Position numbers and translations under genes: made by a program
DNA from: Microthyrium microscopicum
Lineage: Eukaryota; Ascomycota; Dothideomycetes; Microthyriales; Microthyriaceae
DNA: 64,000 nucleotides
Direction: 5' to 3'
NCBI GenBank assembly: GCA_010405405.1
Contig: MU004238.1
Location: 1,440,374-1,504,373 of the forward strand
The notes under the pieces: model-generated
The model's database searches: none
Seen by the model: the letters and a program-made list of their open reading frames with translations, nothing else
Told to the model about the DNA's origin: nothing
Shown: positions 5,514 through 61,743 of the stretch, in pieces
Numbering within the stretch: position 1 is the stretch's first letter
Layout of the letters: each line of letters starts with the position of its first letter

Positions 5514-6488
5514 ATTCTCGGCAGCGAAGACCAGTGTGTGAGCAAGTGACTGTCATAATATTATACCCTCAGTCATCATGATTCGCTTGAAAATAGACAG
5601 CGTATACAACCTTTGACGGCGTCTCTGTGCTGGATCATGGCCAAGGAGAAAGGCACCTCATGACACGTAACATAGAATTTCTTTCCCTGTACATTTTTTT
5701 CGGGTTTATGGAGCGGTTGCATGTTTGGTTTCTGACGTTGGATAGTAACGGGACGCTAGTTTTGGCGAAGTAAATGTCAAAAATATGAAGCTAAATGGCC
5801 AAAAAGTGTTTTGAAGACGTGAAATGTGCCATGAAATAAAATTTGCTCAACCACCGATATGCTCGAGAGCCGGCAAGGTTGAATGGTAAGGTCATGGTTA
5901 TTCGGTCTAGGAACCTGTTGCCGTCGGGTAATCATTTTTACGCAATCGTGAGAGAGCTCAAGCCGACAGGATGAGATCCCATTTCAGTTTTGAGGAGAGA
6001 AGAAGAACGAGGAATTGATTCTGCGAAGTTGGGGTGGTCGATGAGACAGGGGCAATATAGTATTATCATTGGGGCTAGCCATGAGCGGTTTTGATCAAGC
6101 TTGATTAGATTGGACAGTTGGATTAGATAAGATGGATTAGAGGTGACCTTTGGGTTGCTACGCCACGTTTAATATGGGTTGTGCCTGACGACACTCCCAC
6201 CCGCCTTGGATCAACCGGGTCACTTTGGACTACCTGCACCTCTGACTCTATTCCTTACAATCTGCTGTCACTTTGTTGTCTTTTCACTTGCCAAAGCGTG
6301 TTGTCCTCTCTCTGCAGCTATAAAGCCAGCTTGTACTCTCGTGTGATCATCCTTACCCCTCCTCTCCACAATCCAACAACATCTTTTGCCCCACCAACTG
6401 CATTCCCGATCCGCCTTATATACAGTCCATACTGTAGAACGCTTTTCTATACAACACTTACTACCTTTTCCCACACACAAAGTCCAGC
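5514..6488. other. Intergenic region between carrier and PP28 gene
   Basis: No gene seen. The first part is the carrier 3' flank. The 6.1-6.49 kb part should be the PP28 promoter and leader: it carries three GATTAGA copies (6103-6109, 6121-6127, 6135-6141), and CT-rich leader-like sequence follows at 6340-6480. An open frame at 6181-6726 is low-complexity leader read through the start of the next gene and is not a separate CDS. Confidence 0.5.
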
Positions 6489-7367
6489 ATGTCCAGTGGA
6501 GCTGCTAGAGGCGGCCGAGGTCGAGGCGGAAAGTTCTCAAAGCCAAAGCGAGGAGGTCAGTAACTTTGGAGCCCAATATCCGATCTGCTCTCCCATTACT
6601 AACACAGAACTCCAGGCGGCAAACACTTCAGCCGAGATCTCCAACCTCTCAATGCCGATGGCGAGGTCGATAACATGTGGGCTGTACGTTCCTCTCCCTC
6701 TATACAACCCTAAAGTCCTCTACTAACCTCACGCTAGCCCCGCAACAAGAAGATCGACGAAGATGATTCCGAAGAAGACGATGAAGATGACTCCTCCGAG
6801 GAAGACTCCGACTCCGACGGCGGTGACAAGCCAAACATGACCCGCGAAGAGCGCCGCGCCGCCGCCAAAGCCCGCAAATCCGCCGCCATCGCTCGCAAAG
6901 GCGGCCGTCCTCAACCCGGCGACCTACCATCCTCGTCTGAAGAAGAATCCGATGAAGAGGAAGATGAAGGCGATATGCCCGCCAACCCCAACCATAGTGC
7001 CGCCGCCCGCTCACAGGCATCCCAAGCACCTGTTCTCCCTGACGAAGCTGCTGCAGAGGCTGCTGGCGGCAAAGCAAAGCCCAAGGGCGCACTAAGCCGT
7101 CGTGAGAAGGAGGCCTTGGCAGCACAGCAGGCGAAGGAACGTTACGCCAAGCTACATGCTGAGGGCAAGACGGACGAGGCCAAGGCGGATATGGCGCGAT
7201 TGAAGGAGGTTCGTGAGCGTAGAGAGGCAGAAGCTGCGCGGAAGAAGGCGGAGGCAGAGGAGCGGGCTGAGCAGGAGAAGAGTAAGACCGAGCAGTTGGC
7301 GCGCGAGGCGCGGATGCGTGAGGCTGCAGCTGGACGAGGTGGTCGTGGAGGAAAGAAAAAGAAGTAG
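6489..7367 (+). CDS. PP28/PDAP1-family phosphoprotein (28 kDa heat- and acid-stable phosphoprotein-like)
   Basis: A small, highly charged protein of 254 residues in three exons (6489-6555, 6616-6683, 6738-7367). The N-terminus is a short RGG-type stretch ([10 protein letters not shown]). It is followed by [17 protein letters not shown], then an Asp/Glu/Ser tract rich in casein-kinase-2-like sites. The conserved PP28 core comes next: [19 protein letters not shown], then [18 protein letters not shown] and a long Arg/Glu coiled coil. It ends in a second RGG patch and a Lys tail. In animals PDAP1 is a casein-kinase substrate bound to PDGF and linked to mRNA-related functions; the fungal role is not established. 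The start is the first ATG of a CT-rich leader and gives a frame that splices cleanly. Confidence 0.85.
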
Positions 7368-8270
7368 TGGTGTTCTTCCGATCATGATATAGGTAATCAA
7401 GGTCTTGTGCGTGTTGTTGCATTGGGTATATTGCATGGTCCTCGGTTGGGACTTGGTATAGAGTATGCTTAGTGCCTGATTTGTTGAGGCTTGATATACA
7501 TTCTATTGCATACGTACCGTAGTGTTTTGTCTTGGGCTTTGTGACGTTCTATCTACATCAATGAGACCTGTCTCTATCCACAGCTGGTATCGCCCTTCTG
7601 TAAGGTCTCCTACAGGGAACCAAGGTGCAACGCAAAGGATCCATTGCAAAGACCTGAGTCCGACTTGCAAATTATCGAAACATTTCGTAGAGTTACTTGT
7701 GTCTGGATCAAATCTTGTCGCTGCCCATAGAATTATTCGACGACTTCCCCAAGTGCATCTTGTTCTCTGGTGCTGAATGAGATATCCTGTCACCGTCACT
7801 GTCAATCCACGACTTGCTCACCATTATCAAACATTGGCAGGTCACAATCACAAAAGAGCCACATTTTTGGAGACAATATTCATTGAACTATCTATTTTCC
7901 CCCTTCCATCTCTGCCTAGTAACCGTGCAAGGATAGGAACTCACTCAATTCATGAGTATCGTACAAATAAACCCCCTTCTTCCCTTTTTTTTTGTTCATA
8001 TTTTTGGTGTTTCAACGCAAGATCCTTTCGAATGACAGGCCAGGTCCTGTCCGATCAAGCCGTTATGGTTGGTTTCTTTTTTTGTGTCTGGCTTTTCGTG
8101 TTTTCTGACATGCAATCGTGGGTATCGTTTTGGTGGTGCAAAGTTGGGTATTGTACAGTGCAAGTGGGTATGGGCAAATCAATGATGGTAGTAACAAAGC
8201 AAAGGTGAAGCCGGTGATCTCAAAGGAGACATCATGTCGTGCCGGCTCGTGTTTGATGTGTGCCAGTAGT
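7368..8270. other. 3' flanks of the PP28 gene and the Argonaute gene
   Basis: These convergent genes share about 900 bases with no supported gene. Open frames at 7503-7805, 7522-7776, 7777-8208 and 8118-8555 lack domain-like content, and the last runs antisense into the Argonaute CDS. A T-rich tract lies near 7985-8000. Confidence 0.5.
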
Positions 8271-11200
8271 TTAGGCGTACCACATCACATTTTTGAGGGA
8301 GTCGTTGAGAGGCAGCAGATTGATGGTCGCAGGATCTTCGCCGCCGGAGCGAGCATCCGCAAAGACCTTGCGAGAGTCCTCACCTTGGAGAATACGCATC
8401 TCAACGCGCTTAGACTCAGTCAACAACGAGGCCATGTCAGCATGTGGCTTGGCGCGGTAAGCCGCAAGATGGGCATAGTAGACAGCGGGGAACATCGAGA
8501 CTGGTGTAGTCGAGCGGATGTACTGGAAGCTGTTCTCAAAGATGAACTGTTGTAGAAGCTCGACTGGGTAACCCTTCTCATCCAATATCATGCGATAATG
8601 GACTGGGCGAGCAGTACCCTTAAGGGCGACATGAGAGTTTAAGTACCAATCATACTCGTTGGCCAGAGTTACACCTTTCTCAACCAAGGTTCCAGGAATG
8701 GGATTGCCGTTTTGATCGCCTCGATCAGGGAAGAAGCGGACATGATGGCGCTTGGTGGCAATGAGGACTGTGAATTTGGGAGTCAGGGTACCGGTCTTGT
8801 TGAGGGACTTCATGTAATCCTCAAAGGCTTTCTTGAGATCGCGAACCTCTTCGGCGATCACTTTGTATGCTTGCTCATTGGAAACGCCGTCTCGAACATA
8901 GATGATTGTCTGCGGAGCCATTTTGTTGGCAGGGCACCATATTTTGAGGATCTCGCGGAACATCTTCTTGATGGCATTCGTGGAGATCATCTCTACGCGC
9001 TCACCGTTGGATTCCACTTGAGCGTGGAAACGGTTGAACTTGTGGTCAGCACTCGCCACAAGTGCAGCAATGGAAGGATCGTTGGATCCGGGAGACGCAT
9101 GAGTAACATCTGCACCGAGGACAAGAATGCCCTGGCCAGGTTCGTAGAATTTGGTGACATTGGTCAAGGCTGTACCAGCTCGACATGTAGCTCCACCAAG
9201 CTTCGCATTCACTTTCATGCAAATATTTGATATGTACTGTCCGCTCGGCTCTTTACCGTTCTTGAAGTGTTTGGAGGCCATGACTTGTGATGCGGTGCCC
9301 CAGCGTAAGTCACAATGACGCTTGATGCCATTGTAAGTTTCCACGTTGCGGTCAGGAACTACGAAGAAGAGCAGTTCTGGCTTGCTAGTCGCTGTCTTTT
9401 TGATCTCGTTGGCAAACTCGTCGAAAGTAGTAGTTCCGCGAAGGAAGTCACCAGAGAAGATAGCCGGCTTTGGGTTTGCCATTCGACCTCCATGACCAGC
9501 GAAGATCTTTACAAAGGAAGTGGCAAATCCTTGTGCTTGAGCTGTGGTGATGCATGGGCCACGACGGTCCTTTTGAATGGCAATCGCCCAGGTCTTGGGC
9601 TGAACGGAGTTGGTACGGTCGAATTTTTTGCCATCAATACGCCATCTACCAGACTGGGTTTCCTTAGCAAGAATCTTGCCATTTTGAAAGTCGACAGATG
9701 GGCAGTTGAGTAGCCGAGCGTCCTTCAAATGCACAGGGCTCTCCGCGTTTTTCACGACCATACCGTAGTGCTTCAAGTAAGGGTCTTGGGGCCAATTCAT
9801 GCTATGCACAGCTTTCTGAATGGAATCCCAGCGAGCTTTGGGTAGTGTGACTGCAAAGTTCAACATGGCGGAGGTCTGACGCTCGTCCAGTTTGAAGGGA
9901 TAGCGCTGGTCAGGAGAAATGGCAACGACCTCCATTGGAAAGTAATCAATCATTTCCGTGAAGACAGGCTCTCCATCTTTGTCTAGGACCTTTTTGCCAT
10001 CCTTGCCAATCTTCAGTTGTCGCTTTTTTACAGCGACCATGGGGAAGTGACCAACAACAATTCCATACTTCTTTTTGAAATAAGCAGCAACAGAGATTTT
10101 TGTGACCTTGCCGTTCTCCTCTTGTTCAAAGTAGTGTTGATGAGGAGATTTTGGAACAATGTCGGAGATACCCTTTTCAGCTTCGAAGACATTGACATCT
10201 TTGGATTTGAGATGTCGGGGGTTCATTCGAACGCGGCGGAAGCGAGACATGGCCTTTCCGGTGCGGGTGCCGTCGTAATAAGCCTTTTGGGCTTCGCGGT
10301 CATTCTTAGCATTTTTCCAGGCTGTCTCCATGTCGCGCTTGAAGTCGTTCTCAAGAGTCTGGGTGTTGCTCATACCAAGATACGCAGGCAAAAGTGCCTT
10401 TAGCATACCAGGTCTAAAGAAGGCACAATTGGCCACATCAACCACCAAAGAGAGGGTGCGTCGAGGTTTGTTCTGCGAGTCGAACTCCTGGAACGTAGGC
10501 TTGAAAGAAACATAAACCCCTTTGACAGCATCCACACCATAACCGAGATCTGCACGATCATTGATATTTGGCTCCTTGGCAGCCTTTTCGGCTTTGCGGA
10601 AGAAGGACTTTTTGAGAATGACCATGTTTCGACGCGGCGACTGGTGAAGAACGTGCTCAAGGAAGTTGAGAGTCTCGCCCCAGAAAGTCTGATTGCGGTC
10701 CAAATCGGTAGCATCTAAGGTCGAGGCTTTGTTTCGAATCTCGTCCTTGCCTTGAAGCATGTTCGCCATAGACGTGAAGTCGAGTTTCTTGGCGAATTTG
10801 ATCGTCACAGTGACACGGTTTGGGCTGTCAGGCTTTGACTGCTTTTTACCTTCTTGAACATTTAAATCAATCTCTTGGACGATTTCCTTTTCAATATGGG
10901 TGTCTGACCAGCCAATTTTGTTGCCATCGTAGACGAAGGTGTTCGGACTTGGAATGAGTGCTTGTACAGCACGGTCGTTCCAGCAGCGCTCTTTGATTTT
11001 TCGCAAGGTAGGTTCGCGACCTTTGCCATTCTTGAAGTCAATGTCGTACTGGTAGATTTTGGTGCTGCCATTGCACAACTTTGTAGTGTCGACTTCCCAG
11101 CAATTGATTTTGACTGGGATAGGCTTGCCTTGGCCGTTTAGCTTCATACGCTTTGGGATCTTAGTAGCATCGATCTGTGTTTTCTTGTTAGCCAGATTGT

Positions 11201-11291
11201 CATTGACGAGAGACAAGGGGGATTTGAGAGCAGAAGGAGATTTGGGAAGACGTTGGGAGGACATCTTTGGGGATGATTGAGGAGTCGACAT
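8271..11291 (-). CDS. Argonaute (QDE-2-like) small-RNA effector
   Basis: Core protein of RNA silencing: it binds a small guide RNA and slices or silences complementary RNA. A single 1006-codon exon as drawn. Order: unstructured Ser/Pro-rich N-terminus (about 1-50), N and linker-1 regions (about 50-330), PAZ region (about 330-480), linker 2 and MID (about 480-700), PIWI (about 700-960). MID keeps the 5'-phosphate pocket pattern ETYNGIKRHCD...TASQ...VNAKLGG. PIWI carries the first catalytic Asp in LGADVTHASPGSND, the second in YVRDGVSNEQ and the His in LNSHVALKGTARPVHY, so slicer activity is predicted. The C-terminus NVMWYA resembles the usual hydrophobic Argonaute end. The RGG-rich N-terminus of some fungal relatives is absent. 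The ATG at 11291 follows an in-frame TGA 21 bases upstream, but a spliced upstream coding exon remains possible (see 11525-12517). Confidence 0.92.
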   Translation of the reverse strand: MSTPQSSPKMSSQRLPKSPSALKSPLSLVNDNLANKKTQIDATKIPKRMKLNGQGKPIPVKINCWEVDTTKLCNGSTKIYQYDIDFKNGKGREPTLRKIKERCWNDRAVQALIPSPNTFVYDGNKIGWSDTHIEKEIVQEIDLNVQEGKKQSKPDSPNRVTVTIKFAKKLDFTSMANMLQGKDEIRNKASTLDATDLDRNQTFWGETLNFLEHVLHQSPRRNMVILKKSFFRKAEKAAKEPNINDRADLGYGVDAVKGVYVSFKPTFQEFDSQNKPRRTLSLVVDVANCAFFRPGMLKALLPAYLGMSNTQTLENDFKRDMETAWKNAKNDREAQKAYYDGTRTGKAMSRFRRVRMNPRHLKSKDVNVFEAEKGISDIVPKSPHQHYFEQEENGKVTKISVAAYFKKKYGIVVGHFPMVAVKKRQLKIGKDGKKVLDKDGEPVFTEMIDYFPMEVVAISPDQRYPFKLDERQTSAMLNFAVTLPKARWDSIQKAVHSMNWPQDPYLKHYGMVVKNAESPVHLKDARLLNCPSVDFQNGKILAKETQSGRWRIDGKKFDRTNSVQPKTWAIAIQKDRRGPCITTAQAQGFATSFVKIFAGHGGRMANPKPAIFSGDFLRGTTTFDEFANEIKKTATSKPELLFFVVPDRNVETYNGIKRHCDLRWGTASQVMASKHFKNGKEPSGQYISNICMKVNAKLGGATCRAGTALTNVTKFYEPGQGILVLGADVTHASPGSNDPSIAALVASADHKFNRFHAQVESNGERVEMISTNAIKKMFREILKIWCPANKMAPQTIIYVRDGVSNEQAYKVIAEEVRDLKKAFEDYMKSLNKTGTLTPKFTVLIATKRHHVRFFPDRGDQNGNPIPGTLVEKGVTLANEYDWYLNSHVALKGTARPVHYRMILDEKGYPVELLQQFIFENSFQYIRSTTPVSMFPAVYYAHLAAYRAKPHADMASLLTESKRVEMRILQGEDSRKVFADARSGGEDPATINLLPLNDSLKNVMWYA

Positions 11292-11524
11292 GATGAGCCA
11301 CCACTTGATTGTTCAGAGCCAGAAAGTTGTGGACTGCAACGCCCAGAGGACTCTTCATAGCTTTATACCACATCAAGCGGTTCTCGCATTGACCAAGACG
11401 AGGGGAAAACAAGAAAGTGAAGTACACCAGGGGTGTATTTGACCGGCCTCAAATACGTCAAAGCTTGGGAAGGAAACGCCTTTTTGGAAAATAGTGCATG
11501 TTCTGAAATGGTAAAGTAACTTAC

Positions 11525-12517
11525 GTCGGCGCCATTGTATTTGGCCCAGAACTCCCAGTTCTGCTCCACACGCGCCGAAGACTCAGCGAAGTTGGCATGC
11601 AGACGTCGGAATTGCTCGAGAGCACGGTTTGGGGCTTCCATCTTGTAGATGAACTTGCGGTGGCTATTTGAGTTAGTGGTGTTGGGTTGGATTGAGTAGA
11701 GTTTTGTAAGTGGGAGAAGTGTATAAGGCTTTGAAGGTTGTCGAAGCAATGGTTCAAGATGTGGAAGACGTAGAGAAGAGTGGTTTGTAGGAGAGATGGT
11801 TATGAAGAGGGTAGAAGAGGTTAAATAGACGAGGATCTGGAGCAGAGATGCAGTGACGGATCTCGATGTCCCAATGAGGCAGTGAGACTTCTCAACGTCG
11901 ACTGAGCCAACTGAACCAGTGTCTCTCAAGTGTCTGAAGTTTAGGCAGATGCGGTGTAATTGGGCAATTGAGAACGGAGGGGAAGTGCTAGGAATGCTGC
12001 TAGGAAGATTCCTTACCAGTTTGAAGAGCTGAGAAGACGAAGCTTGACGCTGAGTTAGTAGGAGGGTTTTGGAAAGCTTGAAGCTTGAAGGGTAGTAGAG
12101 TGCTTGATTGACGAAGTGTTTTGGGATCAAAGTAGAGTTGGTAGAATGGATGGAACTTGTGTGGATGTAGAAGTGTGTGGTAGAAGGATGATGAAGAAGA
12201 AGTGGAGGATTGGAGCGATGGATCAAAATGCTTTATACCAACGAGATGCAGGATTGGAAGCGGTCGAGTGACTGGGACCGGATGCAAATGGCAATGAGAA
12301 CTTACGCTGACGAAGGTTGAGATACCCGATGGGGTGACCGAGTGCCCTCAGAGCACTGAGGATAGAAAATGGGGCAGCAGCAGTTGTCCGCTGGCCTAGT
12401 GAATGGATTGGATATTGAAGATTTGAATGATGAAGAGGGAAGGGTGAGAGAGGGATGAGAGGGTGGTGAGAGAGATAGACGGTGTTTGTTGATGATTGTT
12501 TTGGCGAGAGGCAGCAT
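11525..12517 (-). other. Probable spliced 5' leader (and possible extra coding exon) of the Argonaute gene
   Basis: Three donor-like sites lie on the minus strand upstream of the Argonaute ATG: GTAAGT at 12305, GTAAGG at 12016 and GTAAGT at 11524. Matching acceptors are CTTCTCAG before 12028 (allowing a 12-nt exon 12028-12017) and ACTAACTCAAATAG before 11663. The exon 11663-11525 contains an ATG at 11641 that opens 39 codons of good protein-like composition (MEAPNRALEQFRRLHANF...) and ends in phase 0 at the donor. In-phase joins to Argonaute are possible at AG sites just before or just inside its CDS. I cannot tell whether this is an N-terminal extension, an upstream ORF or non-coding leader. 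Confidence 0.4.
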
Positions 12518-13105
12518 TCATGATTGGCAACTACTGCCGGTTGCCAATGGCCACACATGCACCAAGGCACGAAGTAGAGCAGGAACCCAGGCCGGTCCAG
12601 ACCAGAGATGAGTCGGGTGCTACCCACGTCTTGGAAGGCGCATACCACTTCCCTGTCTGACGGTATCGTGGGTTTCGTTAGAGTAAAGCCATTTGAAAAG
12701 CAGCAGTAGCAAAAGCGATCAAGAAAAGCGCTGGAGGAGGCGTGACCTGGTTCATGTATGAGTGTTGTGAACCACTGCAGAAATCGTATCAAAGAGTTAT
12801 CGAGTTCACCAGAACCATGCCCAAGAAAAGCACGGATTGTATGATTTCTGATCTTATTCTAGCACCACGCTCAGCTTTTTGATTCATACCAAAGAGAATA
12901 GAAATTGCACTGTTGTCTACCACGAGGCAAGGAATCGAAGGGCACATGGAAGAGTCTTTCTACAGAAGGGAGGAGAGAAGCGGGCGATCAGAGGCAGGAA
13001 ACTTACTTCTAACATGCTACTCTGCTGATCACGCACTTGTCCTGGTACCTGTTACAATGGATGTCCAATTTCTCGAGTGGCATTCAATACAAAAGGAGTG
13101 CGAAT

Positions 13106-13151
13106 GCCCTCGAATGAGATGAGAAGTCGCCCTCGAATGAGATGAGAAATC
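13106..13151. repeat. 23-bp tandem duplication
   Basis: Two adjacent 23-bp units (13106-13128 and 13129-13151, beginning GCCCTCGAATGAGATGAGAA) differ at one position. They lie in the gene-poor stretch upstream of the Argonaute leader. Confidence 0.8.
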
Positions 13152-13534
13152 CAGTCGCGCTCCTTGTTACAAGCCATTGATATTCAAATTTTCGAGTCCA
13201 TTTGTTGTGCCGCAGCTGAGCTCTAGCACTCAGCAGATCCAGATTCAAATAGCAAGTCCTGGAGTTGTTTGGAAAATTATTGTATATGCCTTAGACTCTG
13301 ACAGCGGCAAGAATTGTAGCATTAACCACGCTAACACTGGGCGGCGTATTGACATTCAAGCCTAGCTGCAGTCTCTTTTCCAATGCCTCTTATCAAGTAA
13401 GTAGCCATTAAAGATCCAGACACGGTTCCACGTGCGTTCGATTGACATCTAGTGTTCTCCCAGGACTCCAGAGACAGTGTCGACTCTCCCAACACAAACC
13501 ATGCAGTTCGCCGACGGTACGGGACATGCGCTCC

Positions 13535-13906
13535 TCAAAACCATGCATCCTCACATTCCTTGCTCATATTGCCTTCCCAAGTATTCGTGTCTTCAATGGA
13601 TATCGATATTTGTGCCGGACGATCATGATTGCGCTGTCGCCGCGTGGGAGAGGAGTAGGGGTTCCATCGCGGGACTTCAAAGGTAGCGGATTGCTGCTGG
13701 CCGACTTCCGTCAACGTAGGAAACGAAGAGGTGAGAAGGGGAGACGGATGCTCGTCGCCAACGCGTCTGTATTTGTCGTTGTGCATGTTCCGCTGCAAGT
13801 GATGTTGGATACCGTCGAGGGCTGGGATGATTGATCCGATGGACCGCCAGGAAAAAGCAATTATCAATGCAGGGACCAACCAAATGAGCCTCAGCCTTAT
13901 GAACCC
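13535..13906 (-). CDS. Possible terminal exon of an unrecognised small protein
   Basis: A minus-strand open frame of about 123 codons preceded by a textbook acceptor (GCTGAC branch, TTAATTTCTTCCAG ending at about 13907). It begins with a hydrophobic segment (FIRLRLIWLVPALIIAF), then a polar Ser/Pro/Arg-rich stretch, and stops after KECEDAWF. I could not find a convincing upstream exon; the region 13907-14160 has several short frames that do not join cleanly. It could be a short membrane-anchored protein or chance. Function unknown. Confidence 0.22.
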   Translation of the reverse strand, partial: GFIRLRLIWLVPALIIAFSWRSIGSIIPALDGIQHHLQRNMHNDKYRRVGDEHPSPLLTSSFPTLTEVGQQQSATFEVPRWNPYSSPTRRQRNHDRPAQISISIEDTNTWEGNMSKECEDAWF

Positions 13907-14340
13907 TGGAAGAAATTAAGTCAGCATCAGGCTAATGTCGCTGCTTCGAATCCGATTTGCCATGAAGCTCTCAATTTCTTCCAGAATAGAGTATAGGTAG
14001 GAATTGTTGATGGAGAAGCAGCAAAAGGGGTAAAAATGATCTTTGTTTTGAGCTCCGTGTTGTAAATCCTACAAGCAAGATGCCGATACACAACGCCAAA
14101 ATGCAGCGGTGACACCATATGTTCGCCTCAAATTCCAAGTGCTTTGCCAGAAAAGGTCTACCTACTTCACAGTTTCTAACCAGAAAGCTTGGCGGGCCTA
14201 AAGTGTTGATCCTGTTCGCGTTATACGTTGAGCTTATTCATTCATAGATTCATCATCTCCATTCCAACACCTATCTTTTTCAATCAAAGTCTGTACCTTT
14301 CGTCCACCATTCTCCCCAATCAATATGCCGACCTTCAGAC

Positions 14341-14704
14341 ATGAGTTCTCAATTGGACATGTCCAGCACCATCATCCAAGACTACAACAAGACTTGTCAT
14401 CAGCATACAGCCAGTGCAGACACCCCGACGTTGAAAAAAGGCTCCAGCCTAAGAGAATATTACAAAAGCTGCGACCACGCTGTAAATTACTTTACCGAAA
14501 CAATACACGATTGAAATACAGTCAATGCTGCGACCAAAATGGCTAGACCATCCAGACCACCGCTTTCACTCCTCGACCGTACCACCGGCCTCCTCCTTGA
14601 CCACTTTTCTCGGCCTCACGATCCAATCATACTTCGGCAAAGCCTTATCTGTCCTCGGAGACCGGAGTAGGCGTTTGTCCAATCGAAGAGCCTGGACTCA
14701 GTAA
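14341..14704 (+). CDS. Possible small two-exon protein of unknown function
   Basis: A CT-rich, leader-like stretch (about 14220-14325) precedes two ATGs, at 14325 and 14341. From 14341 an open frame runs 57 codons unspliced. If a 40-nt GTAAAT...ATACAG intron (14482-14521) is removed, it continues to 14704 for 107 residues (start MSSQLDMSSTIIQDY, end SNRRAWTQ). Composition looks protein-like but no domain is recognised. The intron would be shorter than the others here and its branch point is weak. Confidence 0.25.
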
Positions 14705-22911: not shown

Positions 22912-23452
22912 TCACTTTCCAGTATCCATAGCGCCCTCTGACTCCTTGGCCTGTTCCAGCCATTCCGTCGCTTCCTTCACTAGCTCCTTTTCTTTTCGCA
23001 AGCCAACATCTCGGCTTCGGCTGTTTAGTACAGCGACATCCATGGCTCCCATCCCGCCGTTGCTTTTGGTATCCTCTACGGGTAGAAGAATGCCGGCTTC
23101 TTCAAGCGCATAAGACTGCTGGAGAAGAATCTGCTTAAGGCGAAATAGCGTTTTGAAATAGTCGCGAACATGTGTCTGGATTCCAGCCTTGCGAGCTTCT
23201 AAAGCAGTTCCATCTGCTTCAGCGAGAAGCTCGGCATTGTGTGTAGAGTCTGATAACAGCGCAATGGCAGAGCCAGCAGACTGTAATAAGTTCGGAACGT
23301 CCTAGCTATTTAGTGAGGTATTCGGGCATTTGGATAGCATTACATACTCGGCTTAGGGCTACAAGGACTTTGAGGTTGTCCATGTTCCCATATACTTGAG
23401 GTTCGGATTCGGATCCATTTTCAGAGCCATTGTCGGACCGATCTTCCTCCAT
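22912..23452 (-). CDS. MED11: Mediator complex subunit 11
   Basis: Small head-module subunit of Mediator, which bridges activators to RNA polymerase II and TFIIH. 164 residues in two exons (23452-23348 and 23301-22912; intron 46 nt). After an acidic N-terminus (MEEDRSDNGSENGSESEPQ) comes MDNLKVLVALSR then DVPNLLQSAGSAIALLSD, the recognisable MED11 helix. It is followed by a HVRDYFKTLFRLKQILLQQ helix typical of the four-helix bundle with MED22. The tail is Glu/Lys-rich helix. The ATG at 23452 is preferred over an upstream frame that lacks domain content. It is divergent from TAF5, 552 bases apart. Confidence 0.78.
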
Positions 23453-24004
23453 GATGGAAAGGCTTGGGTAGTAGTTGTGAGAGACTGCAAGAGATGGTGT
23501 TATGTAATTGCCGGAGAATAGGTTTGTCGCCTGGTGATGAGCATTCTGCGCGTTGTGTAAATGTTGAACCAAGTAACACAACCATCTCTTTTTGGGGTGA
23601 GGTTGGAAGTGATAGCATAAGCGCCGGTTTAATGGTTACAATTGGTTGCATAGACGCCGAAGCGTGCCTTAAAAGGCAACTGCGACCCTCTAAGCTCTTT
23701 CCTAGTGTGAACGTTCATCTTCACTCCATGCATGCTTTGTCAAAGCGCCTCACTTCAACCTCCATCAACCACCCATATTCTAGATCTTCAATTGCTCATC
23801 TGTCTACTTCTTGCTGTATTCATCTCTGGCCATCGCATATCGAATCAACATCGAATTACTTTCCAGGGACCTTGTCTTCATCGCCTCTACATTCGCGCTG
23901 CGCGCGGCCAACATCGCGAGCCTCGAGATTTGTAGGATCATCTGCGCCGTTAAGTTATGAACAGTTTACGCTAATGACTGATAGCTTGAAAGAGATCTGC
24001 AGCC
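23453..24004. promoter_or_regulatory. Divergent MED11-TAF5 promoter
   Basis: This 552-bp stretch separates the starts of two RNA polymerase II machinery genes, so it must hold both promoters. It is CT-rich on the plus strand toward TAF5 (about 23700-23900). I saw no confident named element. Confidence 0.55.
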
Positions 24005-27000
24005 ATGTCTAATATCCCAAATGTCCCATCACGGAGTGGTAGTATCGCCAATGGACCACCAAGCGCAGGCATGAACTCGCAACAAGCACCGCCTCCTACC
24101 CCAGGCGCTGCGCCAACACAGCAAAATCTAAACCAAATAGTAAGTCGATAGAGAACCAACTGGAGATGTTTGGATTGAGTTTTTTTTTTATTCTTGCTTG
24201 TCTTGCTTGTGTTTTTGAGAAGCGGGATCAGACAATCTCAGCAGATGTCTGGGCGGTACGCTTGTGGCCTGGCCCTGCACTTGTTTTTCACTTTCTCATT
24301 TTCTTTGCTGTCCTTTCCGTTTGGCGTCCTCTTCCTTTGCGAGATCTGGAGCTGGAGACTATCTGGACTTGACCATGAGCTGCAAAATCGAGGGTCTCAG
24401 CAGACTTACCTTTCTTGACAACTCATGACATCCATCACGAGGAGGATCCACCCTGGAGATGCTTTAACTATGGAATGCCTTCCTATCCAATTTATGGAGG
24501 CCTTTGAGACTCACACCACCAGCAGCACCATAATGCCTCACTCCAAGGACTAGGCAATGCCCCAAATCGAGGACAAAGCAATTCTCCCAGCCAAAGACCA
24601 GGTTTTGCGTCTCCAAATACTGCAAATATGTATCAATTTCATCCTGCTGGCTTCAGCCAAGGACAGGCTTCTAGGCCGTCACAAGGCTCTAATCAATCGC
24701 AAAATGGTGGCCGTTTACCTGCTCATGGCCGCTCATTATCGAATAATGGTGCTCCAACCCCATACCAACCATTATCTAATCAGCGGGTTAACACTCAAGA
24801 TGGTGGACAGCCTCCGGCCAAGAGACAGCAAGTCTCTGGTGGGCTTTTTTACCCTTCTAATTACCCTGCCTCTCCTCGTCAGGGGACCTCTCAGAATTAC
24901 GGACAGTCACAATCAAGTCCCCAAACTATGCCTGGTAACAATATGGCGCCATCTAACCGTTCTGCCTCAGGCCAGCACTGGAATTCTTCAAATCGAGGTC
25001 CTCTGCAGCTACCAGACCAGCATATGTCAACTGAAAATTCAGCACATGCGCAGCATGGTGGCTTTTCCGCCTCTCAGCTAAGCTCCCCTAGTCGAGGACC
25101 ATCGCAGCAACAAATTTCGCAAGCAATGTCTTCATCACAACTGAATTCTCAAGGCCGGGCTCAGACACAGCGACCAACATCGCAGGGAATATCGCCTAAT
25201 CCACAAATGAGCCCGCATAATCAGGCTCCAATGCAGCAACTGTCATTTTCAGGGGCGCCTCCTTCACAGATGAATGCTCAAGGCTGGGAAGCAACACAGC
25301 AACAATCATTTCAAGAGCCTCCATCCGGTCCACAATTTAATATTCCGGGTCGGGCACCGGCGCAGCAACAGTCGTTACAAGCGGCGTCAGCTTCACAAAC
25401 AATTGCTCAAAGTTGGGCTCAAATACAAGAGCAACCATATCAAGGACCCCTTCATCTACCCGCAAACCCCCGCAATCAGGCGCAAGCACAGCAAAACACA
25501 GCTCAAGATCCTCCATATAGTCCACAGGCGCAGGTTACTCAGAATTATCAAGCGGCACAGCTCCCGACATCTCAAGTCACTTCTTTCAGTCCTCAGTTGC
25601 AATCGCCAACTACTCAAAACCAACGACCAGTGCAGCAGTCGTCTCAAGCAAACTTCTCTAGTCCGCGACCAATCTATCGCAATAATCTGCCAGAGAAGCG
25701 GCCGCTGAACCAAGGAGCTCCTTCTCTCCCGAATTTCAAACTTCAGGGTCAGCTATCGACACCGTCCCAACACGCTCCATCTCGTTTGAGCGACGAAAGT
25801 TCACAAAACCGGGCCTCGCCGTCTCCACAACTTCAAGTACCTTCGCCTACATCGAACTTCTTGCAAGAAAATCAGTCGCACCAAAATTCTCCGGGTGGCG
25901 TGCCAGGACAGCAGCGGCAATTTCAGGGACCGGCTTCTGGCTCTCAGCACAACGCTCCCAATCGTAGCCTGGTGACTAGTAATTCTCAAACTCGAGTGTT
26001 CGATCATCATTCAGAAACTCAAGGGCCGGCAGTTTCTGGTTTTCAGCCCAATTCTTCCAATCGCGGCTCTGCACAACAAGCAGCAATTCAAAGTGCTGTC
26101 TCTATTTCACTACCGAAGGTCCACAGTCAGGTAACTGAGCAGCTCAAGTCTCAAGGTAGCGGACCTTCACTGCAAACCCAGGTCCAAGGTTCATCGAGCT
26201 CATCTCCAAACTTGTTGCATCGAGCTGCACAATCGTCGCCTTCTCAAAGTCACGCAACAACACAACAGCCACCAAATCAAATACTTCCTACCCAGCAGCA
26301 ACAGTGCCCCAGCCAAGGACAAGCGCAACTACATTCTGCTGATCCTAATCGACCGTATCCTCACTCTCAGCATCGTGTACCAGCACAGCAGTTGTCATAT
26401 CAGGTAACTCCTAGGTCACGGCCACAGTCTCAGAGCCAAGGACAGGCGCATCCAAATCCCTCAAACCACGGGCAACAAGCAGCATATGCTAGTAGGCAGT
26501 TCAATACCCATCCTGTAATAAACACCCAATCGAAATCTCCGCCGAATCGGCCAGCAAATCCCGCAATGGCGCCTCCTCTACCCTCTTGGAATGCATCATC
26601 CACTTCTCGAACTTATCTCAGCCCAGGTCCTTCCTTTTCGAATCGCCAGCCATACTATGGAACCGGAACTCCCGGCATGCGGCAAATTCAACGACCGCTG
26701 GCCCCAGTCGTGGAATATCAGCTCAATCCCAATACGGTATAATTTGTGTTTGAAGTTTTGTCTTTGAGATTCTTATTTTTTTTTGTCAAAGGAGACGCGA
26801 CGTTCAATATACTCAGTTTGCTAACGTAACTTCAAGGTTCTTGAGTACCTTAATAAAAAAGGGTATGCAAAAACAGAGGCGACACTTCGTAAAGAATCTG
26901 CCAATCTTGAAGCCAATGGTACGCCCTCTGTACGACGAGCTCGAGAAACTGGTGGTCCGGCTTATGATAAAGCTTTTTGTAAGTTGCGGATCCATTTCTA

Positions 27001-28963
27001 CCATTGTGATGAGGTCTAACACGTTGATAGCGATTCTTCTAGGATTCATTGAAGACAGCTTAGAAGCCTATCGCCCTGAGCTTTATCGACTGTTGTGGCC
27101 GATTTTTGTTCATTGCATTCTTGATCTTGCGGCCGATTACTATCCTCGCGAATGCGAGGCCTTCTATAAGAAGCATCATGAACGATTTGATCGCGAGCAT
27201 GTCGATGAGCTTCGACAACTCTCTGTTATCACAAGCCCGGAACACTTGGCAAGCAGCAGCCTTGCTAAACTGTACCGTGAAAACAAATACCGACTCACTC
27301 TGACAAAGATGGTCTATGCCATTCTGGTACAATTCCTGGAGAATAGGGAAGAAGACGGTGGCGACATTCTTACCAAACTTATCAATAGCCATCTTAAGAT
27401 CGTTGAAGTAGAGCGTGCCGCAGTAGGAGAGCGAAGTTTAGCTGCTATGCTTGCACGCAAAGGTGAAGAATACGACCAGCCTGCCGAAGATGAAGGCATC
27501 CCCGGCCATAATCCTGGATCTGCAAACACAGATCCCAACGCTCCTAATGTTCTACCTCGTCTTGCGCTCGGACCTTTACCTATGGACGTGGACCTTGCAG
27601 ATGATGTTCGCGCAGAATTAGCTGAGCAAGATGAAAAAGAGCCGCCAGCCCCTGGCGAGGATTCGCTTGTGGCAGTCTGGGACGAAAAGGTCAAAAAAGA
27701 ACCAACCGAAGACGCGCCTTCACGCGAAACAATTCCCCTCCCACCTCCTCTAGCTAGAGATGTCGCAATGGAAGTCCAGAAGGTTCGTGAGCATCGTGAT
27801 CGATTCAAGATAGATCCTTTCACGGGCGGAACTCCACCAGGCGTTAGTGTTTGTATGTACACATTTCACAACACACACGAAAGGTTAGTGGAGATATCAT
27901 TATTGAAAACATTCGCCTGACATGTTCTAGCTTCAACTGCCTCGATTTCTCTGGAGACTTGTTATTGGTAGCTGGAGGCACGGCTTTAAGCTACATTCAA
28001 GTTTGGTCACTTGACGGATCGCCCTTGATAGATATGAGTAGACCAGACGAAGAGAAGCCACCATCTTCGCGCCGCCTAATAGGTCACTCTGGACCTGTAT
28101 TCGCAGTTTCTTTCCAACCTTCAACAGAAAAGCCGAAAACTGAGACAGATTTCCTGAAGGACACCCATACAGGCCCCCATCTCCTCCTTTCCGCCTCAGC
28201 CGATAAGACTATCCGTCTTTGGAGCTTAGATGCCTGGACATGCCTGACCTATTTCCGCTCACATCTAGCCCCCGTCTTCGATGTTCAATGGGGTCCTTAC
28301 GGGCACTACTTCTTGACATGTGGTGCGGACAAGGTGGCCCGTGTATGGTCGCAGGAATCTATAGCGCCATTGCGCATGTTCGTCGGCCATGAAAACGATG
28401 TCGAATGTGGCGCATGGCATCCCAATGGCGCATACGTCTTCACTGCAGGCGACAAAACCATTCGAATGTGGGATATAATGCGTGGCACCTCACTGCGCAT
28501 GTTTACGGGACATACTGGGAATATTACCGCCCTCGAATGCTCTCGCGATGGCAAGACTCTAGCATCTGCGGATGATCAGGGAAGCATCTTTTTGTGGGAC
28601 CTGGCAACTGGTACACGCATCAAGCGCATGCGTGGGCACGCCAAAGGAGGCATCTGGTCTCTCTCATGGAGCGTCGAATCGAACCTCGTTGTCTCTGGTG
28701 GCGCTGATAACACTGTTCGTGTTTGGGATGTTGCTCCGCGTGCCGAAGGTTCTCGGGCAGCCGATCTTAATAAGACAGATGGCTCCATGAGTGCTCCTCC
28801 GGTTCCGAGCGTGTTACCACCTAAGAAGTCGAAAAAGGATGTTGTGATCACACCTGATCAGATCAGCTGTTTCCCGACCAAAAAGAGTCCTGTCAAGAAG
28901 GTCATGTTTACTCGGGCAAATCTTTGCATTGCTGGGTCTGTCTTCGAACCTGAGCCAGCTTGA
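24005..28963 (+). CDS. TAF5: TFIID subunit TAF5 (LisH, NTD2 and WD40 repeats)
   Basis: Scaffold subunit shared by TFIID and, in fungi, SAGA. The short reading has exons 24005-24139, 26837-26978, 27031-27883 and 27931-28963, giving 720 residues, the expected length. Exon 1 ends QQNLNQI in phase 0 and exon 2 opens VLEYLNKKGYAKTEATL, together rebuilding the LisH motif. The NTD2 domain follows (EAYRPELYRLLWPIFVHC..), then an acidic linker with QKVREHRDRFKI and VCMYTFHNT. The C-terminal WD40 propeller shows LIGHSGPVFAVSF, SASADKTIRLWS, VGHENDVECGAWHPNG, FTGHTGNITAL and GGADNTVRVWD. Intron 1 is 2,697 nt and carries a large Q-rich open frame (24508-26742) with in-phase splice options at both ends; a long form of about 1,458 residues is formally possible. 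Confidence 0.92.
24508..26742 (+). CDS. Glutamine/serine/proline-rich open frame inside TAF5 intron 1 (possible cassette exon)
   Basis: A 744-codon open frame on the TAF5 strand, opened by a TGA at 24505-24507 and closed by TAA at 26740-26742; the first internal ATG is at 24628. It is rich in Gln, Ser, Pro and Asn and built of degenerate units of about 21-22 residues, e.g. SQMNAQGWEATQQQSFQ, PQFNIPGRAPAQQQSLQ and SQTIAQSWAQIQEQPYQ. Used as an exon from 24523 (after CACCAG) to 26736 (before GTATAA), it is 2,214 nt, exactly 738 codons, and joins exon 1 and exon 2 in phase 0. Only 94 nt separate its stop from the TAF5 LisH exon, which is short for an independent 3' end. It could be a cassette exon, a nested gene or a relic. 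No homology can be assigned by eye. Confidence 0.45.
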   Translation, partial: DSHHQQHHNASLQGLGNAPNRGQSNSPSQRPGFASPNTANMYQFHPAGFSQGQASRPSQGSNQSQNGGRLPAHGRSLSNNGAPTPYQPLSNQRVNTQDGGQPPAKRQQVSGGLFYPSNYPASPRQGTSQNYGQSQSSPQTMPGNNMAPSNRSASGQHWNSSNRGPLQLPDQHMSTENSAHAQHGGFSASQLSSPSRGPSQQQISQAMSSSQLNSQGRAQTQRPTSQGISPNPQMSPHNQAPMQQLSFSGAPPSQMNAQGWEATQQQSFQEPPSGPQFNIPGRAPAQQQSLQAASASQTIAQSWAQIQEQPYQGPLHLPANPRNQAQAQQNTAQDPPYSPQAQVTQNYQAAQLPTSQVTSFSPQLQSPTTQNQRPVQQSSQANFSSPRPIYRNNLPEKRPLNQGAPSLPNFKLQGQLSTPSQHAPSRLSDESSQNRASPSPQLQVPSPTSNFLQENQSHQNSPGGVPGQQRQFQGPASGSQHNAPNRSLVTSNSQTRVFDHHSETQGPAVSGFQPNSSNRGSAQQAAIQSAVSISLPKVHSQVTEQLKSQGSGPSLQTQVQGSSSSSPNLLHRAAQSSPSQSHATTQQPPNQILPTQQQQCPSQGQAQLHSADPNRPYPHSQHRVPAQQLSYQVTPRSRPQSQSQGQAHPNPSNHGQQAAYASRQFNTHPVINTQSKSPPNRPANPAMAPPLPSWNASSTSRTYLSPGPSFSNRQPYYGTGTPGMRQIQRPLAPVVEYQLNPNTV

Positions 28964-29374
28964 GTACGGATTGTTATGACCAATATAACTCATTCTATGA
29001 CGTCCTTCGAAAACTATCAACATCTGGCTCGTCGCATAACAATTCGACAATTTCACGAACGAGTAGTCGATTATCAATTCAAGGGCACAGCATAATGCCT
29101 GCTAAAATCTGCCGGCTGAAGGATACATCACGACTCGCTCTCTGACATAAGCACAATATATCCCTATCTTTTGATGCTGAGGTCTTCCGAAGCATGTAAT
29201 ATACTATCCCTATTCATCGTATCGCTCTGTAATCTCCTGCCTGTTGGTATGGGTATACAGCGATGGTTTGCATCTTTGGTAGGAAGAAATTAGTCAAAGA
29301 GCCAAAACAATTATTATTGTGCATCAAAACTCCGTCGCTATGCCACTGATGTGATTTTAAGCCCTTTCAAGACA
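28964..29374. other. Convergent 3' flanks of TAF5 and prefoldin 6
   Basis: About 410 bases with no gene seen. A 61-codon frame at 28960-29145 overlaps the TAF5 stop and is taken as chance. Confidence 0.5.
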
Positions 29375-29810
29375 CTAAGCAGCAGCAGGTACCCCTTGAC
29401 TGGCCTCGAGCTGGCTTTGAAGTTGATAGATCTGCTCATTCGTTAGTCAATCGCCTCTTAGCTAGACACAGTTACTATGATCTCACCTCCATCTTGAGCT
29501 TTTCACTCTTCTGTCTTACTTCTTCAATCTCCTTCTCTATGCGCTCAATTTCTCGGTTGATGAAGCTTAGACGACCTTCCACGGCCAAAACTGCCTCCGT
29601 CTTGTCCTGTTTGAGTAGCACTGGTCCAACGAGTTTGTAGATTCCGGCCTCATCATCCAGAGTAGCAAATTCTTTCTGTACTGCTTTGTTTTCTTGTTGT
29701 TGTGATTCCAGCTTTTGTCTTGCGGCGACTGAGTTGCTGAGTTCGGTTTGAAGTGAGTTGTACTCGTCTGTGAGCGCTTGTAGATGTCCTCCAGGACCAG
29801 GATTTGCCAT
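29375..29810 (-). CDS. YKE2: Prefoldin subunit 6 (beta-type)
   Basis: Subunit of the hexameric prefoldin co-chaperone that hands unfolded actin and tubulin to the CCT chaperonin in the cytosol. 126 residues, two exons (29810-29487 and 29431-29375; intron 55 nt with a GACTAAC branch). The long N- and C-terminal coiled-coil helices flank the beta hairpin YKLVGPVLLKQDKTEAV, typical of beta-class prefoldin 6. Helix 2 runs RLSFINREIERIEKEIEEV. The short second exon encodes IYQLQSQLEASQG and an Ala tail. It is divergent from VPS4, 443 bp apart. Confidence 0.9.
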
Positions 29811-60087: not shown

Positions 60088-61743
60088 CTATTTTGACCAC
60101 CCACTGGTATCCATCGAAAGATCACTCAAGAAACCTGCCGCCACTGCATTTTCGTCCAAAAGAATATTTGGGTCAACAGGCATGTTTTCATAACCCATCA
60201 TATCCGGGATTGTTGTAGCAGGCATCGCCGCTGCTGCAGTTACCAAAGGCATCATACTTTGCTCGTCCATTGTAAACTGAGCACTTGTAGGTACTTGTAA
60301 AACACCACCCTCAGGCATGGTCGCTATTAGAATGCCAGGTTGTGAGGGTGTCGCAGTCTGGTTGATGGCTGAAAACTGCGACACCGGCATTTGGGTGAAA
60401 AGGACTGGTATGCCGTTGGCGGTGAGCATGTGCGGTTGTGCCGGGTTGATCATGGGAGCTGCACTTTTGCCTGGCTCGACACAATCCTGGCAGTTTTTGA
60501 TGACCAGTGTTGCCGTTTCTTTGATTCTAACCCAGTGATATCTCTCGGCAACTCGAGCGGTAGTCTTGTTGATACCTTCGTGGGCTAGTTCGTGCATCTC
60601 CCTGGCCACATCATATTGCCTCTGAGGATCTGATATCACTTCCTTATCCTTCAGATATAGCTTTTCCTCCTGCTGCCCTGAGGCATCCAAAGTGTTTTCG
60701 AGAATCAGTCGGTAATGTGTTGCTGCGCTTCTCAATCTCGACTTTTCGGCTCGAGTCGCACCATCTGGGTACTTTGCGTGCTTGAGATAATACTTGATTT
60801 TGTCGAACCGTTCGTCAGTGGCAAAGTCCTCCGGAGTTGTTGCATCAAGCTCCCGCCCGAATATGATGGCATCCACCGGCTCATCATGGCTCTTCAGATG
60901 ACCACATCCCTTGACCCTTCCAATCCTTTTGAACCCCAAAGCATCCCAAATCTTGCACGAGGCCACGTTCGTTTCATACACAAGATTGAAAACAGAATAC
61001 GTGTATCCTAGCTTGGGTGCCCACTCGACGTAAGTTTCTCCCATCAAACGTCCCACGCCACGATTCCTTGCTCCATCAGTGACCAGAAACGTCCCATTGC
61101 ACACATGGCTGCTGCGACCAGGATAATTCGGTTTGATGTAGAAACTGCCAATACACTCCTTTTCCCAGTCTGTCTCGACATAGAGGGTACCGCCAAGTTT
61201 GGTCAGCGCCTCCTCAGTGGTGGCACCCCAATCACCAAGAAGCATGATGGCGACAAAGTTGGAGAACCAGTAGGAGCCAAAGGCAGCCAAAGCCATTGGC
61301 TCTGTCATGGCATACGTATCGCCTTTCTCGATCTCGCGATTCATCTGCTTGCTAAGATACGACAGCAGCGAGAGCGGGATATAGGTGATGGAGTCCACGG
61401 GAATCAGCGTAGCACTGGTGATTCTATCTCGCAGTGTTACGCGCCTAGGTTGGATCTAGTCTGTTAGCATGATTCGGTAATAGAGTAGTAAAATGGCCAG
61501 TGATGCCATAGTGAACAGCATAAACGACACGTTCCCAGCAGGAAGACAGTTTTTTCCAGTTTACATTTGATGGCAGGACGTAACGGATGGCGCCCATCCT
61601 ACTTGAGAGTACTGGATAGGATGGCTTGACATGGGAATACTTACGGCATCAGGCAAGCCAGACGACGGGCCATCATACGGCGGTTCTCCCGAGGTCCGAT
61701 AAATTGGCTGTCGAGCCGGATCGTCAAGAACAGCCTTCAACAT
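60088..61743 (-). CDS. GNAT acetyltransferase with HHCC integrase-type zinc finger (SPT10-like)
   Basis: 488 residues, two exons (61743-61645 and 61455-60088; intron 189 nt with a TGCTAAC branch). The N-terminal GNAT domain (about 30-215) has TLRDRITSATLIPVD, the acetyl-CoA loop RNRGVGRLMG and NVASCKIWDALGFKRIGRV. Residues about 310-350 carry an H-x3-H...C-x2-C finger: MHELAHEGINKTTARVAERYHW then KNCQDC, as in retroelement integrases. Yeast Spt10 combines a GNAT domain with such a finger and binds histone-gene UAS elements, so a histone-gene regulator is likely. The C-terminus is low-complexity (Pro/Gln/Met/Ala) with an acidic end, resembling an activation domain. Confidence 0.82.

Follow-up and report, generated by a model that had tools for sequence, protein, structure and literature searches.

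A glutamine-rich open frame of 744 codons, very probably coding, within the first intron of TAF5 in Microthyrium microscopicum

The long first intron of the TAF5 gene of Microthyrium microscopicum holds, on the same strand as TAF5, an open frame rich in glutamine, serine, proline, and asparagine (here called the Q frame), and this frame is very probably real coding sequence. Two quite dissimilar proteins, TAF5 and a Q-rich one, may come from this single locus. For the manner of its expression, we tentatively favor a reading in which TAF5 exon 1 would be spliced to a Q-rich terminal exon, with the two outputs mutually exclusive and served by one promoter. Positions are those of the window, the whole 64-kb stretch of DNA that was analyzed (C9:1440374-1504373; G+C content, 44.3%); the genome searched comprises 36.9 Mb on 20 contigs. 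The features that define the locus are as follows.

24005 to 24139, + strand: TAF5 exon 1 (ATG at 24005, 45 codons, ending in phase 0), a candidate shared first exon
26837 to 26978, 27031 to 27883, and 27931 to 28963, + strand: TAF5 exons 2 to 4, with the LisH sequence, N-terminal domain, and WD40 repeats
24140 to 26836, + strand: TAF5 intron 1 under canonical splicing (donor GTAAGT, branch point GCTAAC, acceptor CAAG)
24508 to 26742, + strand: Q/S/P/N-rich open frame of 744 sense codons plus TAA (130 Q, 117 S, and 94 P)

The TAF5 host gene and its surroundings

Rebuilt from its four exons, TAF5 is a protein of 720 amino acids, and the junction 24139/26837 translates as ...QQNLNQI/VLEYLNKKGYAKTEATLRKES...; the reading through of this join, asserted in the earlier note, is thereby borne out. 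The best match among PDB chains was 9ynu_D (E=2.1e-195, phmmer), and 6hqa_B and 6t9i_D were also matched, with alignments starting at query residues 14 (9ynu_D), 11 (6hqa_B), and 20 (6t9i_D). The alignment with the solved chains begins within exon 1 and extends almost to the C-terminal end of the protein, with LisH, NTD2, and WD40 collinear, and in this the host gene is like known TAF5. It differs in that its intron 1 holds the 744-codon frame, whereas the PDB chains, in the 3 of 10 matches whose alignments were inspected, have no Q-rich insert where exons 1 and 2 meet. Because these alignments continue across the boundary between exons 1 and 2 with no large insertion, exon 1 is assigned to TAF5. 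The Pfam WD40 match was obtained from the stop-to-stop frame, and LisH and NTD2 were identified through the PDB-chain alignment. Judged by its sequence, with LisH followed by NTD2 and WD40 in the order of solved TAF5, the gene is TAF5, the scaffold of both TFIID and SAGA.

Intron 1 is 2,697 nt long compared with 52 nt for intron 2 and 47 nt for intron 3, as unusual a length as had been claimed. In a survey of about 264 kb of context that covered lengths of up to 110 nt, 28 introns, selected partly by donor likeness, were retained from 65 clusters, and these are 45 to 108 nt long, mostly about 50 nt. With its homology-based junction and a GCTAAC branch point about 12 nt before its end, the 2,697-nt intron would nevertheless make sense as a canonical splicing unit. 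A structured RNA was rejected as the cause of the long intron, there being no Rfam match up to an E value of 1 in 23400-29400. A scan for bacterial promoters and terminators is not meaningful for this DNA.

A Med11 gene (Pfam PF10280, 22912-23301, minus strand) lies upstream of TAF5 in divergent orientation, so that genes for a Mediator subunit and a TFIID/SAGA subunit stand head to head and probably share a promoter region (22912-24005). Downstream of TAF5 is a prefoldin subunit gene. Elsewhere in the window, at 60088-61455 on the minus strand, a 455-codon frame appears by eye to combine acetyltransferase-like and integrase-type zinc-binding-like parts. The exon-3 piece of TAF5 matched 34 stretches of bacterial and archaeal genome contigs and 7 stretches of IMG/VR, none of which was confirmed, as expected for a fungal gene.

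Coding signal of the Q-rich frame

The same-strand frame reported at 24508-26742 is indeed one of 744 sense codons plus TAA, and the evidence that it is coding comes chiefly from its lack of stop codons. The ratio of CAA/CAG to TAA/TAG is 130:0 in the Q frame. The two remaining frames of this strand have 43:6 and 21:24, which sum to 64:30 (Fisher p=2e-13 against the Q frame), and the noncoding background has 6,420 to 14,432. Calculated from the segment's own composition, the chance of 744 open codons is 1e-8 under a first-order Markov model, 1.4e-13 with overall composition, and 8e-15 with codon-position-specific composition. In total, 141 codons (CAA, CAG, and CGA) are one C-to-T change away from a stop, yet the body of the frame contains none. 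Stops are absent in a frame-specific manner and beyond what composition accounts for, which is the mark of a protein-coding exon and a strong sign of translation-level constraint.

Codon usage is a different matter. The synonymous codon choice of the Q frame lies 4.4 SD above background and 4.5 SD below gene-like sequence, with a synonymous-codon score of -0.4 bits versus +51.7 bits for TAF5. Read in the +1 and +2 frames, this DNA scores higher (+131 and +119 bits), and therefore the synonymous-codon score gives the Q frame no support. Among 80 local open reading frames, its codon usage ranks third lowest and its GC3 lowest. Such poor codon usage would suit a gene that is weakly expressed or evolves fast; a young relic is compatible with it too.

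The glutamine content of the frame is not a microsatellite; no tandem array was found at score 30. Of the top 60 lags of internal DNA matches, 58 are multiples of three, a further point in favor of coding. Over internal lags 12 to 299, identical residues share codons at a mean rate of 0.351, compared with 0.353 at random, as expected of old sequence. Because codon sharing is about random and tandem arrays are lacking, the frame is not wholly a fresh repeat expansion, an explanation that is mostly rejected. At single lags, codon sharing is above expectation at lag 43 (0.457 versus 0.364), lag 32 (0.423 versus 0.351), and lag 22, and below it at lags 108 and 129; part of the internal array may be a younger duplication. 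Mismatches in the internal matches number 153, 163, and 182 at the three codon positions (450 each), no more than a mild gradient. Windows chosen by protein score favor codon positions 1 and 2 and were left out of account; only two such windows (scores of 57 and 52) reached the top of six shuffle maxima (52). The control with the +1 and +2 frames and the excess at single lags weaken these side arguments and leave the stop-codon test intact.

Neither protein nor DNA searches of the genome (E<=0.001) found a copy of the Q frame other than itself; this search skips simple repeats, and its copy counts are lower bounds. A transposon or multicopy element is not supported by this single-copy result. 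Searches of Pfam (E<=1) and of PDB chains (E<=0.1) gave no match, and among IMG/VR sequences 6 stretches matched a pattern with none confirmed as relatives. The Q/S/P/N-rich product is probably disordered. By eye, it contains the basic patches PPAKRQQV and EKRP, which would fit a nuclear, coactivator-like low-complexity protein.

Entry into the frame, exit from it, and competing readings

The possible routes of expression involve five further features.

24140 to 24522, + strand: candidate 383-nt intron from exon 1 to the Q exon (GTAAGT...ACTCAC...CACCAG)
24523 to 26742, + strand: favored putative alternative terminal exon, 739 codons plus TAA, predicted to give a 784-amino-acid product with exon 1
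24628 to 26742, + strand: Q frame from ATG 24628, giving 704 amino acids if it is an independent nested gene
24262 to 24345, + strand: pyrimidine-rich tract (75% C+T) whose promoter-like character hints at an independent nested gene
26737 to 26836, + strand: candidate 100-nt intron for a cassette form, with the weak donor GTATAA and the acceptor of canonical intron 1

Upstream, the Q frame is shut by TGA 24505-24507, after which the first in-frame ATG is at 24628. Coding-like codons start at about 24511, well before that ATG: the coding score of 24508-24627 is +30.7, a value that none of 821 open noncoding windows attains. Sequence on the other side of the TGA is not coding-like, the scores of 24433-24504 and 24475-24504 being reached by 34% of 1,843 windows and by 18% of windows, respectively. 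An in-frame ATG at 24475, 10 codons upstream of the TGA, encodes MPSYPIYGGL followed by the stop. The TGA itself may have arisen by a recent nonsense mutation, or may be an error in the sequence.

No GT dinucleotide starts between 24395 and 24601, and therefore the donor for an exon that begins with the coding-like stretch must lie at or before 24394. The sole strong donor inside intron 1 in that range is TAF5's own GTAAGT at 24140, which is in the correct phase (phase 0) for splicing from exon 1 to 24523 by way of acceptor 24522. A separate coding first exon in 24140-24394 was considered and rejected: the one other donor listed was GTACGC at 24256 (phase 2, ATG 24245), for which a single YAG in matching phase (exon start 24591) is found, without a listed branch point. 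Before the CACCAG acceptor stands ACTCAC (24509-24514), whose A lies about 9 nt before the end of the intron; no CTRAY or TTRAY branch point was found within the scanned 7 to 35 nt. The CTCAC type is not the common form among local intron candidates: 52 donor-first candidates, many of them probably chance pairs, comprise 27 with CTRAY, 7 with TTRAY, 7 with YTYAY, and 11 with none. A nearby 47-nt intron-like stretch with GTAAGT likewise has ACTCAC before its acceptor. The phase-0 match of the acceptor carries little weight because in-frame CAGs supply phase-0 YAGs in a CAG-rich frame (58 of 93 YAG sites in the Q frame are in phase 0, and for 8 of these 58 a relaxed branch point lies within range). 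Acceptor 24522 is therefore credible and not distinctive.

At the 3' side, the last codon of the Q frame is GTA, followed by TAA 26740-26742; read as a donor at 26737, this is GTATAA. It is a poor donor, without the +5 G that is present in 28 of 28 retained local introns (themselves chosen partly by donor likeness). Because the TAA sits inside GTATAA, the frame can end as a terminal exon. As the earlier note had it, 94 nt (26743-26836) separate this stop from the LisH exon; the interval is T-rich, and no clear poly(A) signal was seen in it by eye.

Under the favored reading, one promoter would serve TAF5 exon 1, whose GTAAGT donor would face two competing acceptors, 24522 and 26836. Splicing to 26837 would yield the 720-amino-acid scaffold of TFIID/SAGA, and splicing to 24523 would yield a 784-amino-acid Q/S/P/N-rich protein that shares the first 45 residues of TAF5 and stops at TAA 26740-26742, with its 3' end presumably formed within the 94 T-rich nucleotides that precede the LisH exon. 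As the two outputs would be in competition for one first exon, the Q form would in addition determine the amount of TAF5. Against this reading, 383 nt is long for a genome in which retained introns, surveyed up to 110 nt, measure 45 to 108 nt.

A strong rival, though the less likely of the two, is a nested gene independent of TAF5: it would lie on the same strand, have a promoter within 24140-24507, and be translated from ATG 24628 into 704 amino acids, with TAF5 spliced over it. A T-rich tract at 24178-24222 (60% T) and the C+T-rich tract at 24262-24345, whose strand skew is matched by 0.16% of 16,098 noncoding windows, resemble fungal promoter sequence, and ATG 24628 has an A at -3. However, the 40 codons upstream of that ATG are strongly coding-like, so that the frame has no start codon of its own where coding begins and ATG 24628 lies about 39 codons inside. 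Ten other intron ATGs also lie upstream (24166 to 24557), including the in-frame 24475 that runs into TGA 24505. Space for a 3' end is scant, although the use of the 94 nt as an argument against a nested gene was not well founded, as a short 3' end could fit.

It is unlikely that the frame is a relic, in which case a Q-rich gene caught in the intron would have lost its 5' end to decay and would no longer yield protein. The TGA at 24505 and the weak codon usage agree with decay, as do two 10-codon Q-protein-like stretches that lie in a different frame, that of TAF5 exon 1 (24233-24262 and 24383-24412). Of 48,294 background windows, 0.06% and 0.24% score as high as these two stretches (11.6 and 8.5, respectively), which are 2 of 36 listed windows of 24142-24503. 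They may be what is left of a Q gene that once extended further 5', or may be fortuitous, and no donor allows 24383-24412 to be spliced to the Q exon. The body of the frame argues the other way, having no stop despite its 141 codons at risk, and on average over lags its synonymous codons look randomized, which implies that time has elapsed without nonsense.

The earlier note had raised a long Q-rich isoform of TAF5, made by a cassette exon at 24523-26736. The arithmetic stands: the segment is 2,214 nt, and exon 1 plus the segment plus the rest of TAF5 reads as 1,458 amino acids with a terminal stop only, in phase at both ends. The 5' half of the proposal is also plausible, exon 1 having GTAAGT and the Q frame CACCAG with ACTCAC. 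The downstream acceptor has the good GCTAAC branch point, and a giant Q-rich tail placed N-terminal to LisH should leave the folded domains intact. The earlier statement that TAF5 does not normally contain Q-rich sequence has to be softened, since 6t9i_D (from budding yeast SAGA) carries a short Q-rich stretch, sqgqsqqqgrsngpfs, at the equivalent place just before LisH. The 3' side of the cassette is weak, however, the donor GTATAA including an in-frame TAA. Because this donor is weak and the phase match of the acceptor is cheap, a terminal exon ending at the TAA is ranked above the cassette, which we consider quite improbable. Also improbable would be three products from one promoter, namely, TAF5, a free Q-rich protein with the first 45 residues of TAF5, and the 1,458-amino-acid TAF5. 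The remaining weight falls on other starts, an error in the sequence at TGA 24505, and an assembly fault.

Relation to known systems and biological meaning

Nested coding sequences and loci with a shared first exon are known kinds. Q-rich regions occur in other TFIID subunits, e.g., animal TAF4, and the likeness lies in a low-complexity Q-rich sequence tied to a TFIID gene; compared with such regions, the Q frame is without a Pfam or PDB match at the thresholds given above. At the cholinergic locus unc-17/cha-1, the shared first exon is noncoding and one gene has an intronic position. It is described as an operon-like locus that gives two proteins (PMC4769160). The likeness extends to the favored model only, in which one promoter and alternative splicing would lead to two unrelated proteins; here, in contrast, 45 coding codons would be shared and the organism is a fungus rather than an animal, and no homology is claimed. 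Protein-coding genes nested in introns, a known kind, have been the subject of comparative work in vertebrates, flies, and nematodes (PMC3488318) and have in common with our locus a long frame inside a host intron. The Q frame differs in lying on the same strand, without an in-frame ATG at its coding start, and in its possible dependence on the first exon of the host. A narrow literature search, over titles and abstract openings, met neither a coding exon in a fungal TAF5 intron nor a 744-codon Q-rich exon in the gene for a TFIID/SAGA scaffold in a fungus with short introns.

Automatic annotation could readily merge TAF5 and the Q frame or overlook the latter. If three products were made, splicing would add or remove a 738-residue Q-rich tail before LisH on TFIID/SAGA, and such a tail would be a giant low-complexity activator-contact domain. 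Should exon 1 serve a competing Q-rich terminal exon as well, or should TAF5 be able to incorporate the Q exon, splicing would tune a general transcription factor, and this control would sit in a compact fungal genome. The locus would then furthermore illustrate how a long intron can be retained because of what it encodes.
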